This document shows, piece after piece, positions 4,488 to 24,479 of a stretch of 55,058 nucleotides of DNA. Where the stretch lies: contig JAIEQK010000010.1 in the NCBI GenBank assembly GCA_019747795.1, positions 1 to 55,058 of the forward strand, in the 5' to 3' direction. The notes beneath the pieces were generated by a model, which saw only the letters and a list, made by a program, of their open reading frames with translations, did not search any database and was not told the DNA's origin. The position numbers and the translations under genes are program-made. The stretch's first letter is position 1. Every line of letters starts with the position of its first letter. This stretch comes from Gammaproteobacteria bacterium (lineage in GTDB: Bacteria > Pseudomonadota > Gammaproteobacteria > Ga0077536).

Positions 4488-4515
4488 GTCCCCACCCCCG
4501 AATAATGCCCCGCAG

Positions 4516-4545
4516 TGGCTACGCGTTCGCCGCGGGCACGGATCA
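4516..4545 (-). promoter_or_regulatory. Candidate ECF (ChrR-partner sigma) promoter for the lipid operon
   Basis: On the minus strand TGATCC (4540-4545) is followed after 18 bases by TAGCCA (4516-4521). This resembles the -35/-10 pair recognised by Rhodobacter RpoE, whose -35 core is TGATC. Predicted transcription starts near 4509, leaving a leader of roughly 20 bases with a G-rich ribosome site before the ATG at 4487. The same architecture faces the other way toward the sigma gene. Confidence 0.6.
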
Positions 4546-4556
4546 CCCCGCCCACC

Positions 4557-4586
4557 TGATCCGCTCGTGGGCCCTCGCCGTAGAAG
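4557..4586 (+). promoter_or_regulatory. Candidate autoregulated ECF promoter for sigma/anti-sigma pair
   Basis: TGATCC (4557-4562), an 18-base spacer, then TAGAAG (4581-4586). Spacing and -35 core match the divergent promoter exactly, arguing for recognition by the sigma factor encoded immediately downstream. The expected transcription start is about 4592-4593, which coincides with the first candidate ATG, so the mRNA may be leaderless or nearly so. Confidence 0.6.
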
Positions 4587-4591
4587 CTGGC

Positions 4592-5245
4592 ATGATGAGC
4601 AAGCCCATGACGACACGACGACCGACCGAGGACGCGGAGATCCTGCCCTTTCCCCACCCGCCGGAGGAGCGCCGCGAGCCCGCGGCCGATCCGGCGGCGC
4701 TGGAACGTGCCGAAGAGACCGCGCTCCTGGTGAAGGTGCGAGACGACGGTGACCGGGCGGCCTTCCAGCGGCTGTTCAAGCTGCTCGCGCCACGCATCAA
4801 CAGTCACCTGCGTCGCGGCGGCATGGCCCCGGCGGATGCCGAGAACCTGCTGCAGGACGTGTGGCTGGTGGTGTGGCGCAAGGCCAATCTATTCGACCCC
4901 AAGCTGGCCTCGGCCCGCACCTGGATCTTCACCCTGGTCCGTAACCGGCGCATCGACCTCGAGCGCGCCGCGCAGCGCGAGCAACGCCTGGTCGCGGACT
5001 TCGCGCGCAGCGAGGGCGGTGTGGACAGCTACGAGGTCGACCTCCTTTCGCAGGCATTCGGCGCGCGTGTCGGCCTGCTTCTGAATGACCTGCCCGTGGA
5101 ACAGCGCGACGTGCTCATCAAGTGCTTCGTGGAAGGGAAATCTCAACGCGAAATCGCCGAAGAGAGCGGTTTGCCCATCGGCACGGTGAAATCCCGCGCG
5201 CGACTCGCCTTCGAGCGCGTGCGGGCCGTGCTGGGAGAAGGATGA
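4592..5245 (+). CDS. rpoE: ECF sigma factor, ChrR-regulated (RpoE/singlet-oxygen type)
   Basis: A 217-residue group IV sigma factor. Region sigma2 spans about 44-120 (core binding DAENLLQDVWLVVWRKANLF, -10 reading RTWIFTLVRNRRID) and region sigma4 about 160-213, with the helix-turn-helix SQREIAEESGLPIGTVKSR. The neighbouring ChrR gene, overlapping by ATGA, identifies the subfamily: RNA polymerase is redirected when reactive oxygen inactivates the zinc anti-sigma factor. Start choice is uncertain: ATGs at 4592, 4595 and 4607 are possible, none with a strong ribosome site, and the promoter position suggests a leaderless start at 4592. A longer frame from 4505 would include the promoter itself and is unlikely. 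The symbol follows the Rhodobacter convention. Confidence 0.88.
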   Translation: MMSKPMTTRRPTEDAEILPFPHPPEERREPAADPAALERAEETALLVKVRDDGDRAAFQRLFKLLAPRINSHLRRGGMAPADAENLLQDVWLVVWRKANLFDPKLASARTWIFTLVRNRRIDLERAAQREQRLVADFARSEGGVDSYEVDLLSQAFGARVGLLLNDLPVEQRDVLIKCFVEGKSQREIAEESGLPIGTVKSRARLAFERVRAVLGEG

Positions 5246-5895
5246 TGACTAGCATGCGACACCCGGACAGCGGCTGGCTGATGGACTATGCCTGTGGGCA
5301 TCTGAGCCCGGCCTTCGACGCCGTGATCGCCACTCACTTGCTCGGCTGCGCCGAGTGCCGGCGCGACCTCGAACTCGCCGAGCGCCTCGGCGCCGAGGTC
5401 ATGGTCAACGATGGCCTGCTCGCGCCGCGACTGGCCGCCGAGGACGTGCTGGGCACGCAGCGGCCCATCGCCGATTCGCTCGGCTGGCGGCCGAGCAGCG
5501 CGGTGCAGGGCGCACGCGACCTGACCGCCGTGGCCAGCACTTATTTGTCGCTCGGCGAGCCCGCGCTGCGCTGGCGCAGCGTCGGTGGCGGCGTGGCGAT
5601 GGCCAAGCTGCGCGGCGGCGAAGGCGACCGGCTGTGGCTGCTGCGGGCGCAGCCGGGCGCGGTGCTGCCGCGCCACAGCCATCACGGCAGTGAGCTGACC
5701 GTGGTGCTGCAGGGGGCTTACGTGATCGACGACCAGGTGTTCGGCGTGGGCGACCTGGAAGACGCCGACGAGTCCGTCACGCACCAGCCGATAGTCACCA
5801 CGCGTGGCGAATGCCTGTGCCTGGCGGCCACAGCGGGGCCGCTGCGCTTCGCGAGCTGGCCAGCGCGTCTCGCGCAGCACTACCTCGGGATTTGA
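5242..5895 (+). CDS. chrR: ChrR-type zinc anti-sigma factor with cupin domain
   Basis: A 217-residue cytoplasmic anti-sigma factor. The N-terminal zinc-binding anti-sigma domain shows H7, H32, C36 and C39 (HLLGCAEC), the expected HxnHx3Cx2C ligands. The C-terminal cupin carries H145, H147, E151 and H181 (RHSHHGSELT and downstream His), matching the second zinc site that senses singlet oxygen and organic peroxide in Rhodobacter ChrR; C191 and C193 follow. The start overlaps the sigma stop as ATGA with GGAGAAGG upstream, giving coupled, near-stoichiometric synthesis. It should hold the sigma factor inactive until oxidative stress releases it, activating both divergent promoters. Confidence 0.9.
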   Translation: MMTSMRHPDSGWLMDYACGHLSPAFDAVIATHLLGCAECRRDLELAERLGAEVMVNDGLLAPRLAAEDVLGTQRPIADSLGWRPSSAVQGARDLTAVASTYLSLGEPALRWRSVGGGVAMAKLRGGEGDRLWLLRAQPGAVLPRHSHHGSELTVVLQGAYVIDDQVFGVGDLEDADESVTHQPIVTTRGECLCLAATAGPLRFASWPARLAQHYLGI

Positions 5896-6492: not shown

Positions 6493-7350
6493 TCAGGCTT
6501 CGCGTGCCGCGCCGTAGCCGAGCGCGAACGCTGTGTCACCGTCGCGGCCGAGGTCGCGCACGGTCGGCACGACCGCGCGGCGGCCGTTCGGGATCTGCGC
6601 CTCGACGTTGCCGTGGAAGTAGCCCAGCCGATCGAGGAACGCGGGCGAGAGCCGGGCGATGGTCTCGGGCCACAGCGCCGCGTTCCAGTTGATCTGTGGC
6701 CGTAGCCAGCGCTTCACGAAGTAGCCGAACAGCGCGGCGCGCCGACAGTCGCGCGAGCGGTTGGCGCCGGTCTGATGCCATAGTCGACCATCCATGACCA
6801 GCATGCTGCCGGCCGGCGCTTCGATGGCCACCGTGCTCACCGTCTCGCCCGCCGCCGGACCCCGCCCGAGGCGATGGGATCCGGGCACGTAGCGCGTGCC
6901 GCCGTTATCCTCGGTGAAGTCGTCCAGCAGCCAGGCGACGTTGCAGGCCAGCGGCTGGTCCGGCCAGGGCGGCAGTACGTAGCCCTGGTCGGCGTGTAGC
7001 GGCATGGGCCGGCTGCCCGGCGCGGTGATGTTGGCGCTGAAGTTCGAGATCAGGAAGGCGCGCCCGAGGGTCTGTTCGACGAAGCGCACGCCCAGCGGGC
7101 GCTGGATGAGATCGATGAACACCGGGTCCAGGTTGAACAGGTGGAATACCCGCTCGTTCAGGTCGTCACTGTCGAAGGCGTAGCCGCGGGTCGGCACGCC
7201 ATCGGCCTCGCTGACGGCGATCGCCGCCTCGAGTCGCTGGCGGACCTCGCGGGTCTCGTGGGGCGACAGCGCGCCCGCGAGCAGGGCGAGTCCATGCTCG
7301 GCGAGATCGCGGCTGGCCTGTTCGGGGTCGGCGGTGAGGGTAACGGTCAT
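6493..7350 (-). CDS. Phytanoyl-CoA dioxygenase (PhyH) family protein
   Basis: A 285-residue Fe(II)/2-oxoglutarate oxygenase of the PhyH family. The iron triad is visible as H119-x-D121 (MPLHADQGY) and H192 (GRLWHQTGAN); NGGTRYVPGSHR (149-160) is the conserved strand before it, and arginines near 197-204 are candidates for binding 2-oxoglutarate. The start at 7350 was chosen because the longer frame merely reads through the small-RNA repeat region. Substrate cannot be told from sequence: members hydroxylate acyl-CoAs, small metabolites and secondary products. It is oriented away from the small-RNA units and 99 bases beyond the last of them, so read-through expression is possible. Confidence 0.82.
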   Translation of the reverse strand: MTVTLTADPEQASRDLAEHGLALLAGALSPHETREVRQRLEAAIAVSEADGVPTRGYAFDSDDLNERVFHLFNLDPVFIDLIQRPLGVRFVEQTLGRAFLISNFSANITAPGSRPMPLHADQGYVLPPWPDQPLACNVAWLLDDFTEDNGGTRYVPGSHRLGRGPAAGETVSTVAIEAPAGSMLVMDGRLWHQTGANRSRDCRRAALFGYFVKRWLRPQINWNAALWPETIARLSPAFLDRLGYFHGNVEAQIPNGRRAVVPTVRDLGRDGDTAFALGYGAAREA

Positions 7351-7448: not shown

Positions 7449-7537
7449 AGAAATAAGTCGCCGGGCCTTTTTTAGGGGCCCGGCGAGGGGAGGTCCCAGA
7501 GACAGGTCTCGAGGGGAGGTCGATTGCTGTCTTGGTG
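7449..7537 (-). ncRNA. Putative small RNA 1 with two CCUCCCC (anti-SD) motifs
   Basis: The minus strand predicts an about 89-nt RNA beginning CACCAAGACAG. Its first hairpin is closed by GACAG/CUGUC and an inner UCGA/UCGA stem, placing CCUCCCC (complement of 7513-7519) in the loop. A second CCUCCCC (complement of 7487-7493) sits single-stranded just before a 10-bp GC terminator stem (7458-7467 with 7477-7486). CCUCCCC can pair with purine-rich ribosome sites. Structure and motifs are repeated almost exactly in the unit at 7629-7714, and the two share a promoter arrangement. The design resembles CcsR/cuckoo-type RNAs of alphaproteobacteria, but homology is not claimed. Confidence 0.65.
7458..7486 (-). 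terminator. Terminator of small RNA 1
   Basis: A 10-bp perfect GC stem (7458-7467 with 7477-7486) with a 9-base loop. On the minus strand it is followed by CUUAUUUCU, a broken U-tract, so termination is probably weaker than in the second unit and some transcripts may run on into the dioxygenase gene. Confidence 0.6.
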
Positions 7538-7543
7538 AGGCAC

Positions 7544-7571
7544 ATGATACCGCATTAATGCGGCAGTGCAA
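7544..7571 (-). promoter_or_regulatory. Candidate promoter of small RNA 1, with internal palindrome
   Basis: On the minus strand TTGCAC (7566-7571), 16-base spacer, TATCAT (7544-7549). The spacer is filled by the perfect palindrome CCGCATTAATGCGG (7550-7563), a likely operator position. A preceding TTGATTG is shared with the second unit. Transcription would start near 7537. Confidence 0.45.
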
Positions 7572-7628
7572 CAATCAATTTGAAAAAGACTGTTGCTTGA
7601 TGTGCGGGCACCGGGATTACGGACGCCC

Positions 7629-7660
7629 AAAATAAAATGCCGGGCCTTTGGGGGCCCGGC
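7629..7660 (-). terminator. Terminator of small RNA 2
   Basis: An 8-bp perfect stem GCCGGGCC/GGCCCGGC (7639-7646 with 7653-7660), 6-base loop, followed on the minus strand by AUUUUAUUUU (complement of 7629-7638). This is a good intrinsic terminator. Confidence 0.75.
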
Positions 7661-7714
7661 GAGGGGAGGTCCCGAAGACAGGCTTTCGAGGGGAGGTCGA
7701 TTACTGTCTTGGTG
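7629..7714 (-). ncRNA. Putative small RNA 2, tandem paralogue with two CCUCCCC motifs
   Basis: The minus strand predicts an about 86-nt RNA with the same 5' end (CACCAAGACAG), the same first hairpin (GACAG/CUGUC with UCGA-CCUCCCC-UCGA inside; motif complement at 7690-7696), a second unpaired CCUCCCC (7663-7669), and a terminator GCCGGGCC-loop-GGCCCGGC followed by AUUUUAUUUU. Between the copies, stems and motifs are kept while connecting bases differ (for example GAGAC versus GAAAGC), the pattern expected of selection on RNA structure. It has its own candidate promoter at 7721-7748. Short reading frames across both copies look alike for ten residues and then diverge, which speaks against coding. 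Confidence 0.7.
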
Positions 7715-7720
7715 GGAGCA

Positions 7721-7748
7721 ATCTTACGCCGCTTTTGGTGCGCCGCAA
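7721..7748 (-). promoter_or_regulatory. Candidate promoter of small RNA 2
   Basis: On the minus strand TTGCGG (7743-7748), 16-base spacer, TAAGAT (7721-7726), with the same TTGATTG upstream as the first unit. Transcription would start near 7714, giving the same 5' end (CACCAAGACAG) as unit 1. The palindrome of unit 1 is not present here. Confidence 0.42.
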
Positions 7749-7787
7749 CAATCAAAAAGTAATAAACCTGTTTCCAAATATGCACAA

Positions 7788-7821
7788 GGCGCGGGAAATC
7801 CGTAACACGAATTCCCGCGCC
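7788..7821 (-). terminator. Terminator after the dimethylformamidase-like large subunit
   Basis: A 10-bp perfect stem GGCGCGGGAA/TTCCCGCGCC (7788-7797 with 7812-7821), 14-base loop region, followed on the minus strand by TTGTGCATATTT. It lies 11 bases past the stop at 7832 and insulates the small-RNA promoters from the upstream gene. Confidence 0.65.
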
Positions 7822-7831
7822 CTCGTCGCCC

Positions 7832-10090
7832 TCAATCGAGCAGCGATTTGCCGCTCGCGAACCTGTCCAGCACGTTCTTGGTGATGCGCGAGACGTTGTT
7901 GCGGTACTTGTCGTGGGCCAGCGATCCCGGCCAGGCGATGGAACTGGCCGAGAACACCCCGCCGCCGTTAGAGGTCGGGTAGAACACCATGTCGGCGCGC
8001 ACCAGCTCGCTCTCCTGTCCGCCGGTGCCGGGGTAGTTGATCAGCAGTTCCTCGCACACCACCAGGTAGATGTCGGTGTGGTCCACCGACGAGGCCAGCA
8101 GGTAGGCGCCGGGCGGCGTGCCGAGCGCCCGATCCGCCCGGTCGATCTCGAGGCCGGCGGCGCCGCCACCGATGAGCCCGAAGTCGCCGATGCGTTCGTC
8201 CTTGCCCACCCCGGCCATGATCCACTTCACCTCCGGACGGAAGCTGTCGGGCTTGCGCAGGTAGTAGGAGGAGATGTCGAAACCCTGGGCGGTGAAGCCG
8301 GTACCGAGCAGCTTTTGCGGCGCGCGGCCGTTGCGCCGCCACAGGCCACCGTACTCGCCGGTGAAGGAGTGGTAGTACTCGCCGGTGCGCGCCTCCCAGG
8401 CGCGAATGCCGCCTTCGGCGCGGCGCACTTCCATCACGCCGGCCTGCTCGCGATGGAAGGCCACGCGCCAGTACCAGCCGTTGGCGCCGAGGTACATCAA
8501 GCGGCCGCCGCGCTGCTGGTAGGCCGCCATCGCGTCCCACATCTCCTTCGAGTGGTACTCGGGGTGCGACGCGGTGACCACGACGTTGTATTGCTCGATG
8601 GCCGCGACGCCCTGGTAGTGCAGGTCTTCGTCGGTGATGACGTCGTAATCGTAGCCCATCGCCTCCAGCCAGTTGATGGTGTGGGTGTCGGCGTTGAACT
8701 GCCACAGCGTCGAGCCTGTGCCGCCCAGCCACGAGCGGTACTTGGGCCGCATGTTCAGGATCGGGCGCAGGCGCGAGGTGTAGCACACGCCCGAGCCATC
8801 GCTGTGGGTGTCGTAGCAGCTCGCGCCGTACTCGCGATGTTCGTTGCGGAACAGATCCTGGCGCTCGTGCTCGACCAGTCGCCCGCCGAGCAATTGCGCG
8901 ATGGGCGCGTCGGAGCCCATGTGCTCGTTGGCGTAGGCCATGTAGCTTGCGGTAGGCAGCAGGAAGCAGATCTTCGCGGTCGCCTGTCCGCGCGGTGGCA
9001 GGATGGCGAAGGGTACGTAGTCTTCGTCCTCGAGGCCCTTACCGCAGCGCAGCCGCGCCGCGTAAAGACCGCTCTTCAGACTCTTGGGCACGGTCAGCGA
9101 GACATCGACCTGCCAGCCCGCGTCGTGCAGGTCGTCGTCGTGGAAATGGATCGCGCCGTACTGCTCGGGCGCGTGGCGCCAGCACATTTCTTCGCCCGTC
9201 CAGTTCCAGCCGGTCATGCCGCGCGCCGGCATGTTGACCACGCGGCCGTCGAGCCGGTTGGGCGAGGCGTCGCTGACCTTGACGCTGGTGATGTCGGCGC
9301 CGAAATCCCAGGCGGCGACCAGGTCGTGCAGCAGCGCACCGTTCACGCGCGGCGCGCGGAAGGCCTGCAGTTCACTTTCGGACAGCGCGCGGCTGGCGAT
9401 GCGCGGACTGTCGATCTTGCCGTTGTAGTGCGCGGTGCACGCCGTGCGCCCGGCATCGAAGCGCTCGAAGCAGGCGCCGAGGGTGAGCGGCGCGTCGTGC
9501 GCCATGCCGACGCCTTGCTTGAGCTTGACGCGCTTGCGCGCGGCGTCGTTGGTGCCGACATGGTTGTGCAGCGGTTCCTGGTGCAGCGTGACGGTGCGAC
9601 TCCCGGCGTCGTAGCTCGCCGCGACGAAGTACCACTCGTGGGATACGAAGGGCTTGCCGGTGGTGACGGTCTGCACGCGTCCGCGGCCCGCGCCGACGCG
9701 CAATCCCAGGCCCTGCGGGCCCAGGCTCAGCACTGCGCCGCGCTGCGCGTCCGTCGACCAGTGCGCGATGAGCGCCTGCTCGCGGCGCGCGGGAGTGGTC
9801 GGCCACACATAGGCGGCGAAGGTGAAGCTCTCCAGCGCGCTGACCGGCCCGCCGCCCGGCACCTCGACGAAGGAGCCGGCGTGGATCACCTGGCGCCGAC
9901 CCTTGTAGCGTCCGCTCGCAGCGGTGCGCACGACCTTCTCCTTGTAGCCCGGGCCGTCCGGGTTCAGGTCGCCGCAGATGAGCTGCACGATGTCGCACTC
10001 GAAGCGCGAGGCCTCGCAGTTGACCATGAAGTTGATGGTTTCGCCGGGCGCGACGCTGATGCGATCGGCATAGGCAGTGATTTTCATCAT
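7832..10090 (-). CDS. N,N-dimethylformamidase-like large (beta) subunit
   Basis: A 752-residue protein of the DMFase large-subunit family, which hydrolyses N-substituted formamides in Paracoccus and Alcaligenes. It begins with a beta-rich domain (MMKITAYADRISVAPGET), continues with a LamG/concanavalin-like region (about 85-245, SFTFAAYVWP, HEWYFVAASYD) and ends with the catalytic domain. ASHPEYHS contains H509 and E511, matching the His and Glu iron ligands described for Paracoccus DMFase; the tyrosine ligand is probably Y426 in CYDTHSDGSG. The first of two adjacent ATGs has GAGG at good spacing. The small-subunit gene lies 114 bases upstream. The physiological amide here is unknown. Confidence 0.82.
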   Translation of the reverse strand: MMKITAYADRISVAPGETINFMVNCEASRFECDIVQLICGDLNPDGPGYKEKVVRTAASGRYKGRRQVIHAGSFVEVPGGGPVSALESFTFAAYVWPTTPARREQALIAHWSTDAQRGAVLSLGPQGLGLRVGAGRGRVQTVTTGKPFVSHEWYFVAASYDAGSRTVTLHQEPLHNHVGTNDAARKRVKLKQGVGMAHDAPLTLGACFERFDAGRTACTAHYNGKIDSPRIASRALSESELQAFRAPRVNGALLHDLVAAWDFGADITSVKVSDASPNRLDGRVVNMPARGMTGWNWTGEEMCWRHAPEQYGAIHFHDDDLHDAGWQVDVSLTVPKSLKSGLYAARLRCGKGLEDEDYVPFAILPPRGQATAKICFLLPTASYMAYANEHMGSDAPIAQLLGGRLVEHERQDLFRNEHREYGASCYDTHSDGSGVCYTSRLRPILNMRPKYRSWLGGTGSTLWQFNADTHTINWLEAMGYDYDVITDEDLHYQGVAAIEQYNVVVTASHPEYHSKEMWDAMAAYQQRGGRLMYLGANGWYWRVAFHREQAGVMEVRRAEGGIRAWEARTGEYYHSFTGEYGGLWRRNGRAPQKLLGTGFTAQGFDISSYYLRKPDSFRPEVKWIMAGVGKDERIGDFGLIGGGAAGLEIDRADRALGTPPGAYLLASSVDHTDIYLVVCEELLINYPGTGGQESELVRADMVFYPTSNGGGVFSASSIAWPGSLAHDKYRNNVSRITKNVLDRFASGKSLLD

Positions 10091-24403: not shown

Positions 24404-24479
<76 letters not shown>

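Follow-up and report, generated by a model that had tools for sequence, protein, structure and literature searches.

The window, by which we mean the whole stretch of 55,058 nucleotides that was analysed, carries on its minus strand two small-RNA-like units, a (about 7714-7629) and b (about 7537-7451), between a dimethylformamidase-like gene and a PhyH-type dioxygenase gene. A preliminary description had proposed two sibling units on this strand, each with CCUCCCC in a hairpin loop, a second unpaired CCUCCCC and a terminator, all of which we found in place. The features of the locus are the following:

7832-10090, minus strand: DMFA2_C gene (N,N-dimethylformamidase large-subunit-like; Pfam E 1.5e-101), just upstream of the units
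7759-7775, minus strand: distal promoter element GGAAACAGGTTTATTAC, read by eye
7735-7751, minus strand: conserved imperfect palindrome TTGTTGCGGCGCACCAA over the -35 box of unit a
7721-7748, minus strand: promoter a, sigma70-like; TTGCGG (7748-7743), 16 nt, TAAGAT (7726-7721)
7629-7714, minus strand: sRNA unit a, about 86 nt; start at 7714 predicted from the conserved -10 box
7672-7712, minus strand: hairpin 1 of unit a, CCAAGACAG ... CTGTCTTCGG, inner CGA-CCUCCCC-UCG
7690-7696, minus strand: anti-Shine-Dalgarno (anti-SD) motif CCUCCCC in the loop of unit a
7663-7669, minus strand: anti-SD motif CCUCCCC in the unpaired linker of unit a
7639-7660, minus strand: intrinsic terminator stem of unit a, GCCGGGCC/GGCCCGGC, then ATTTTATTTT
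7558-7574, minus strand: imperfect palindrome TTGTTGCACTGCCGCAT over the -35 box of unit b, less symmetric than that of unit a
7544-7571, minus strand: promoter b, sigma70-like; TTGCAC (7571-7566), 16 nt, TATCAT (7549-7544)
7451-7537, minus strand: sRNA unit b, about 87 nt; predicted start at 7537
7496-7535, minus strand: hairpin 1 of unit b
7513-7519, minus strand: anti-SD motif CCUCCCC in the loop of unit b
7487-7493, minus strand: anti-SD motif CCUCCCC in the unpaired linker of unit b
7460-7484, minus strand: terminator stem of unit b, GCCGGGCC/GGCCCGGC, with a weak T tract GACTTATTT
6493-7350, minus strand: PhyH-type dioxygenase gene (Pfam E 2.1e-27), downstream of the units

Both units start with CACCAAGACAG, at 7714 and 7537 respectively. 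In hairpin 1, an inner CGA/UCG helix presents CCUCCCC in the loop, the second CCUCCCC is unpaired, and a GC-rich terminator comes last. The motif, which we take to resemble the 3' end of 16S rRNA, provides both units with the anti-SD-like sites that had been noted earlier. Folding energy z-scores of the units range from -5.0 to -6.1, with 0 of 200 shuffles as stable, and RNAalifold run on the first eight homologues gives the same structure as the one drawn by hand. A fifth CCTCCCC lies outside the two units, at 7429-7423.

Each unit has its own promoter-like element, and the spacing of 16 nt between the boxes is identical in the two, as the preliminary description had it. A consensus promoter scan flagged neither promoter, and a consensus terminator scan flagged the terminator of unit a only, with 0.8 expected by chance. 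Promoters and terminators are credited for their conservation across the copies described below. Alignment of 21 copies on TTGC shows that these share TTGCxx and a TATAAT-like box, with the RNA start 32-35 nt after TTGC in those whose model match begins at the RNA start. A TTGnTGCnnnGCAnCAA-like palindrome overlaps the -35 box and keeps at least five of eight symmetric pairs in 21 of 23 copies, being weak in G023a (3 pairs) and G020 (4 pairs). Its mean of 5.9 versus 2.0 overstates the contrast, as the search expression forces two of the eight symmetric pairs, and its conservation was judged by eye. The distal GGAAA-type element is similarly spaced in copies of the window's genus, g1, and of genus g3. 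Between the stop codon of the DMFA2_C gene and promoter a, at 7788-7821, lies a 13-bp inverted repeat (92%) without a clear T tract.

A DMFA2_C-type gene stands just upstream of the units in 11 of the 14 loci found, so the dimethylformamidase-like neighbour is a recurrent one. In the window's family, 34 of the 36 genomes have DMFA2_C (PF20254) genes, up to six of them in one genome, and none of 14 control genomes has any, which marks an expansion of dimethylformamidase-like enzymes throughout the lineage. Elsewhere in the window, at 4505-5895 on the plus strand, the gene of an ECF-type sigma factor (sigma70 regions 2 and 4) overlaps that of a ChrR-like cupin (Cupin_7), a pair that resembles the RpoE-ChrR singlet-oxygen module. 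G001 and G002 have ChrR-like homologues close to the sRNA locus, and G001 also has a sigma-like one there. Control of the units by RpoE/ChrR, which these genes had suggested, is not supported: the four g3 loci that were examined have no such homologue in the cluster, and the promoters appear to be of the sigma70 type.

Distribution and conservation of the RNA family

We searched for homologues by BLAST, with covariance models and by synteny. G000 denotes the window's own genome, and g1 comprises G000, G001 and G002. BLAST with unit a in 40 genomes, the window's included, gave matches in five, with two copies each in the g1 genomes and one each in G007 and G008. A covariance model built from these eight copies (R1) matched 11 of the 36 genomes of the window's family, G006 and five g3 genomes being the additions. 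The second model, R2, had matches in 13 of the 36, and a search at the level of the order covers these same 36 genomes. The R2 match in G047 is spurious: it is a terminator that follows a gene identified by eye as rpmA.

Since the units sit downstream of a DMFA2_C gene, we read the DNA behind the corresponding genes in the model-negative genomes. The prediction held in two (G020 and G014) of the four with readable downstream DNA, and no unit lies downstream of the DMFA2_C gene in G017 and G022; the G015 contig ends just past the gene, and the G008 contig ends inside it, the sRNA of G008 being elsewhere. The units of G020 and G014 (R2 27 bits, E about 1e-5 on 7.7 kb) are diverged and have the same promoter element, C-rich hairpin loop, C-rich linker and terminator. 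A third model (R3), built from 23 copies with these two included, listed 19 of the 36 genomes at E 0.05, of which 14 were accepted (E 8.7e-8 or better) and five rejected (E 0.0068 to 0.020). The R3 matches in G045, G046, G005, G003 and at a third site in G001 are hairpin-plus-terminator pairs without the two motifs or the promoter element.

The covariance-model search of relatives that had been proposed as a check thus yielded, through R1-R3 and one synteny prediction, 23 copies in 14 of the 36 genomes of the window's family and order (Gammaproteobacteria), spread over 5 of 10 genera. Accepted genomes make up 3/3 of g1, 6/6 of g3, 3/3 of g5, 1/1 of g6 and 1/2 of g7, with none in g2, g4, g8, g9 and g10. 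Two tandem copies are present in 9 of the 14, including all six g3 genomes. A scan of named genomes for the pattern with both motifs returned 18 stretches; three of the 16 scanned with R1 scored as real, and the other two are the G001 and G002 contigs. These five family contigs, all titled as metagenome-assembled genomes, are JADLGE010000046.1 (Gammaproteobacteria bacterium SJ420), DBBP01000021.1 (UBA981), CAJWTO010000002.1, CALJHG010000003.1 (the latter uncultured Gammaproteobacteria), and CAMCBY010000286.1. The last, a metagenome contig, is titled Klebsiella pneumoniae; synteny and the sRNA place it in the window's genus, and the label is probably wrong. A plasmid collection held no match to the units.

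Beyond the family, we searched a class sample of 368 genomes, the window's own not counted, which includes at least three (G009, G010 and G016) of the window's family, under stricter filters than in the family searches and with model E-values that are rough. R2 gave no match in this sample at E 1e-4, R3 gave three weak ones (E 1.8e-4 to 6.5e-4, in G184, G114 and G235), and none of the 368 genomes was accepted as holding a member. The G235 match consists of ordinary hairpins, the G114 match has CUCCC in the linker and not in the loop (SorX-like, 28.6 bits, sub-threshold), and the G184 match is formed by two tandem anti-hemB RNAs, a known Rfam family; the promoter palindrome was not seen at any of the three. 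The matches in G184 and G114 indicate that R3 touches other anti-SD-type RNAs, an overlap that may reflect either kinship or convergence.

The aligned copies support selection on an RNA structure, as had been suggested from the two window copies. The 23-copy alignment had been fitted to the structure. In it, the proportion of paired cells is 94.3% (shuffles 78.4%), both sides have changed in 17 of 20 pairs (shuffles 9.0), and the score for covariation is 0.511 (shuffles 0.222). None of 500 shuffles attained any of these three values, and 2 of 500 attained the count of further pair types. With the partner shifted by one, two or three columns, the score is at most 0.089. When 16 copies were aligned with MAFFT without reference to the structure, 12 of 16 RNAalifold pairs were compensated. 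CUCCCC is kept in hairpin 1 of all 23 copies while the stem changes (GACAG/CUGUC to UUAG/CUAA), and CUCCC is kept in the linker of 19, the exceptions being G049a (CUACC), G018a (CUCUC), and G020 and G014 (UUCCCC). Within the window's genus, identity is 87-97% in the units, 79-85% in the 3'-terminal 300 nt of the upstream gene, 66-92% in the promoters and 31-58% in the spacers. Most copies of the family have a single motif hairpin and the linker site. The second sibling in g3 is longer, with an extra 5' hairpin that also has a C-rich loop in both copies folded (G004 and G018), and thus consists of two motif hairpins plus a linker site; the second siblings of the other four g3 genomes look alike in sequence. 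A chance origin is excluded by the 23 copies in 14 genomes together with a covariation score that no shuffle matched, and the units are almost certainly a real, conserved and structured RNA family.

An Hfq gene was found in 31 of the 36 family genomes, the window's included. The five without one (G008, G012, G014, G018 and G023) all bear the sRNA and thus represent 5 of the 14 genomes that do; listed completeness is 100% for G008 and 98% for G012. The missing genes could be assembly gaps or point to Hfq-independence, and if they are truly absent there, the RNA must work without Hfq, as sX13 does.

Candidate targets and mode of action

Counts of G-rich sites at Shine-Dalgarno (SD) positions differ between genera. 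In the six g3 genomes, GAGGGGAG followed by a start codon occurs at 37 sites versus 33 for the reversed pattern, and in four g3 genomes GGGGAGGT is SD-placed 30 times versus 20, so close to the reversed-pattern control that there is little global enrichment. In g1, GGGGAGGT is found 35 times versus 5 (one site counted twice), an excess that may be ordinary SD usage, for which the reversed pattern is no control. GAGGGGAGG occurs 12 times versus 2 in G000-G002, once versus 0 in G007 and 5 times versus 0 in G008.

Particular targets are weakly supported by these comparisons, the best candidate being a DMFA2_C paralogue of g3 (MLRITGYSD...; Pfam E 4.1e-28 on partial sequence). Its SD is GAGGGGAG in five g3 genomes, which are close relatives, and the link was noticed post hoc; the sixth genome, G049 (73% complete), yielded only two DMFA2_C genes, both of other types. 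Among 315 background genes from a 345-kb sample of G018, 3 form a duplex with the first loop of G018a at least as strong as that of the candidate paralogue, and 5-6, 15, 25-26 and 40 do so with the other four C-rich segments. The DMFA2_C gene adjoining the sRNA in G018 has 35 of 315 genes as strong with the first loop. In the same sample, GAGGGGAG stands before the start of 0 of 315 genes and GGGGAG before that of 7. The G006 orthologue of the paralogue has GGGAG, and none of the eight orthologues read in genomes without a detected sRNA, where part of the paralogues were covered, has GGGGAG, a comparison that predates the G014 and G020 units and counts both genomes as sRNA-negative.

Genes of the MKITAYAD type, the neighbour of the sRNA, have GGGGAG in G018, G012, G023 and G008, as well as in G015, where no sRNA was found, and lack it in g1, G004, G050 and G049. 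Targeting of the whole DMFA2_C family was rejected as inconsistent among orthologues. The gene that precedes a third DMFA2_C gene in g3 has roughly 140 residues and might encode the equivalent of a small subunit; GAGGGGAG is its SD in G012, with other sequences in G018, G050 and G049, the remaining g3 genomes with a readable start. Other SD matches fall before Amidase genes (G018, its counterpart in G012 and another in G004), Hydantoinase_A (G018, G012), luciferase-like monooxygenases (G018, G012 and a different one in G000), a CBS-domain gene (G000, G001), 3-hydroxyisobutyrate-dehydrogenase-like genes (two in G000, one in G002) and ribosomal protein L5 (G004, G050). At least one member of each set was examined with Pfam, and many further matches gave very short frames only. 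We hypothesize from these sequences that the sRNAs may control a catabolic regulon, into which ribosomal protein L5 does not fit.

Occlusion of SD sequences in trans by sibling small RNAs is, in our judgement, the best mechanism and a probable one. Its starting points are the observed genes, the structure with its covariation, the constancy of the motif, the conserved promoters and the synteny. Each unit would be transcribed from its own sigma70-type promoter to its intrinsic terminator, with the palindrome over the -35 box acting as a putative operator. Each RNA would offer two anti-SD copies, one clamped in the hairpin loop and one in the unpaired linker, or three sites in the second sibling of g3. 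Through these copies the RNA would bind a restricted group of mRNAs at their GGGGAG(G)-type ribosome-binding sites, probably mRNAs of catabolic enzymes with DMFA2_C-type amidohydrolases among them, and the pairing would block translation.

The same exposed motifs might instead act as a decoy, capturing a protein or a G-rich RNA rather than mRNAs one by one. Repeated identical sites and tandem copies suit titration, and the little global enrichment of SD targets in g3 agrees with it, whereas the complementarity of the motif to SD sequences and the pairing of tested analogues with mRNAs speak against it, and we regard a decoy as unlikely. It is highly improbable that the units form a cis-acting leader or attenuator of the downstream gene, in the window the PhyH gene. 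A PhyH-type gene does follow on the same strand in G000 and G007, where it is the next gene, and about 1.1 kb away in G008; however, G001 and G002 carry a DUF2062-like gene and no PhyH gene at that place, at the four g3 loci that were examined the next called gene runs in the opposite direction, save for an 81-residue frame over the G012 sRNA, and each unit has its own promoter and terminator.

Still less credence can be given to terminator duplications or a mobile repeat without a regulatory role. Such an origin would account for the tandem duplication, and several weak model matches elsewhere are ordinary hairpin-terminator pairs, yet a genome with the units has just one or two of them, most lie at a conserved location, the loop and linker motifs and the promoters are kept, and hairpin 1 covaries. 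Least probable of all is a conserved short peptide. Each of the 12 units translated, g3 units included, has some reading frame that stays open over most or all of its length, and the PhyH frame of the window could start at 7545. On the other side, the first 60 nt of these 12 units contain no ATG or GTG, except in G008 (two such codons), the residues differ between genera apart from those encoded by the C-rich motif, and recognisable PhyH homology in G007 begins well downstream of the unit; no peptide conserved across these units was found. Two of the observations that the preliminary description had named as refuting it, a lack of compensatory changes in homologues and a short peptide conserved across both copies, were thus not made. 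The plus strand was also considered as a CsrA-type GGA decoy and rejected, as the terminators with their T tracts and the promoters fit the minus strand.

Comparison with known small RNAs

Rfam 15 at gathering threshold finds no family for the units, and its one hit in the window, tRNA-Ala (anticodon CGC) at 24404-24479 on the plus strand, is also the sole RNA gene reported by ARAGORN. For 11 homologous loci, Rfam at E of 1 or below gave one match, to rli32, at 23.9 bits against a gathering score of 100. Literature searches returned no paper on CCUCCCC together with an sRNA, and no CCUCCCC among the anti-Shine-Dalgarno small-RNA matches listed. As far as these searches go, the family therefore appears undescribed.

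By analogy, its mode of action may be most like that of NmsRA/NmsRB, NgncR_162/163, NfeR1 and sX13. The Neisseria tandem siblings NmsRA/NmsRB (70% identical; PMC5362039) and NgncR_162/163 (78% identical; PMC9973317) occlude ribosome sites of metabolic mRNAs, and they carry one anti-SD in a stem loop and a second in a connector that is single-stranded. Both the tandem arrangement, here in 9 of 14 genomes, and the layout of loop plus connector are shared, so the suggestion in the preliminary description that the two-motif layout may be new is not supported. The likeness is one of layout only: the Neisseria RNAs have three stem-loops with seeds in the SL1-SL2 connector and the SL2 loop, whereas the units have one hairpin and a terminator, with CCUCCCC as motif, in another lineage and beside other neighbours. 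The units are best read as a separate RNA family that would work like the Neisseria siblings or NfeR1.

NfeR1 and the alpha-r14 RNAs are described as having several identical unpaired anti-SD motifs, hypervariable stems, a conserved sigma70 promoter motif and SD occlusion (PMC10746234, PMC7143759). The repeated identical motifs in unpaired regions and the conserved promoter motif recur here. In contrast, the anti-SD motif given for alpha-r14/cuckoo, CCUCCUCCC (PMC10746234), occurs in 0 of the 23 aligned copies, and these RNAs have three hairpins with the motif unpaired in each, while the window units have one hairpin, a linker and a terminator whose loop lacks the motif, and match no Rfam family. 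The suggested likeness to cuckoo RNAs thus does not hold in motif or hairpin number. SorX of Rhodobacter (RF02784), termed 3' UTR-derived in a title cited in PMC8307010, gave the lowest E-value among the sub-threshold Rfam alignments of the units, at 18.1 and 17.9 bits against a gathering score of 46.6; ACCUCCC and a GC-rich terminator are common to both, and the match fails the threshold. The hairpin-linker-terminator unit of G114 (L272:1501-1583, minus strand; SorX 28.6 bits against 46.6), preceded by a TTGACA-like box, is perhaps another C-rich sRNA. CcsR1-4 of Rhodobacter are four homologous sRNAs processed from a transcript shared with ccaF1 (PMC8307010), unlike the copies here with their own promoters.

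The C-rich loop design is also that of sX13 of Xanthomonas, whose loops repress mRNAs with G-rich ribosome-site motifs independently of Hfq (PMC3771888); sX13 differs in having three stem-loops with 4C/5C motifs. Anti-hemB (RF02837, Burkholderia RNA 7) likewise combines a single hairpin, whose loop contains CCUCCCU, with a linker and a GC-rich terminator, and differs in loop sequence and promoter. It is not listed by Rfam for the window units at E up to 10 or for the 11 homologous loci at E up to 1 (gathering score 49.5). The pair in G184, from another genus and family of the same class, lies at L273:1501-1780 (minus strand), the copies about 200 nt apart with near-identical upstream sequence; it scores 52.1 and 53.4 bits with the Rfam anti-hemB model (gathering 49.5) and 32.4 and 26 bits with R3.

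Taken together, these comparisons describe an apparently new sRNA family, in bacteria identified from metagenome assemblies only, and add another lineage with duplicated SD-mimicking sites. The covariance models can be used to annotate it, and since the numbers of copies and motifs vary in nature, one can test why its seeds are redundant. More speculatively, and with considerable doubt, it might be an operator-controlled, multivalent anti-SD family, located beside DMFA2_C genes, that tunes the catabolism of amides and related compounds in an uncultured lineage of Gammaproteobacteria, evolves by gain and loss of motif hairpins and by gene duplication, and could be one branch of a superfamily (C-rich loop, C-rich linker, terminator) together with anti-hemB and SorX. 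That the same design recurs in Neisseria, rhizobia, the anti-hemB RNAs of Burkholderia type and Xanthomonas may point to several independent inventions or to a superfamily not yet recognised.
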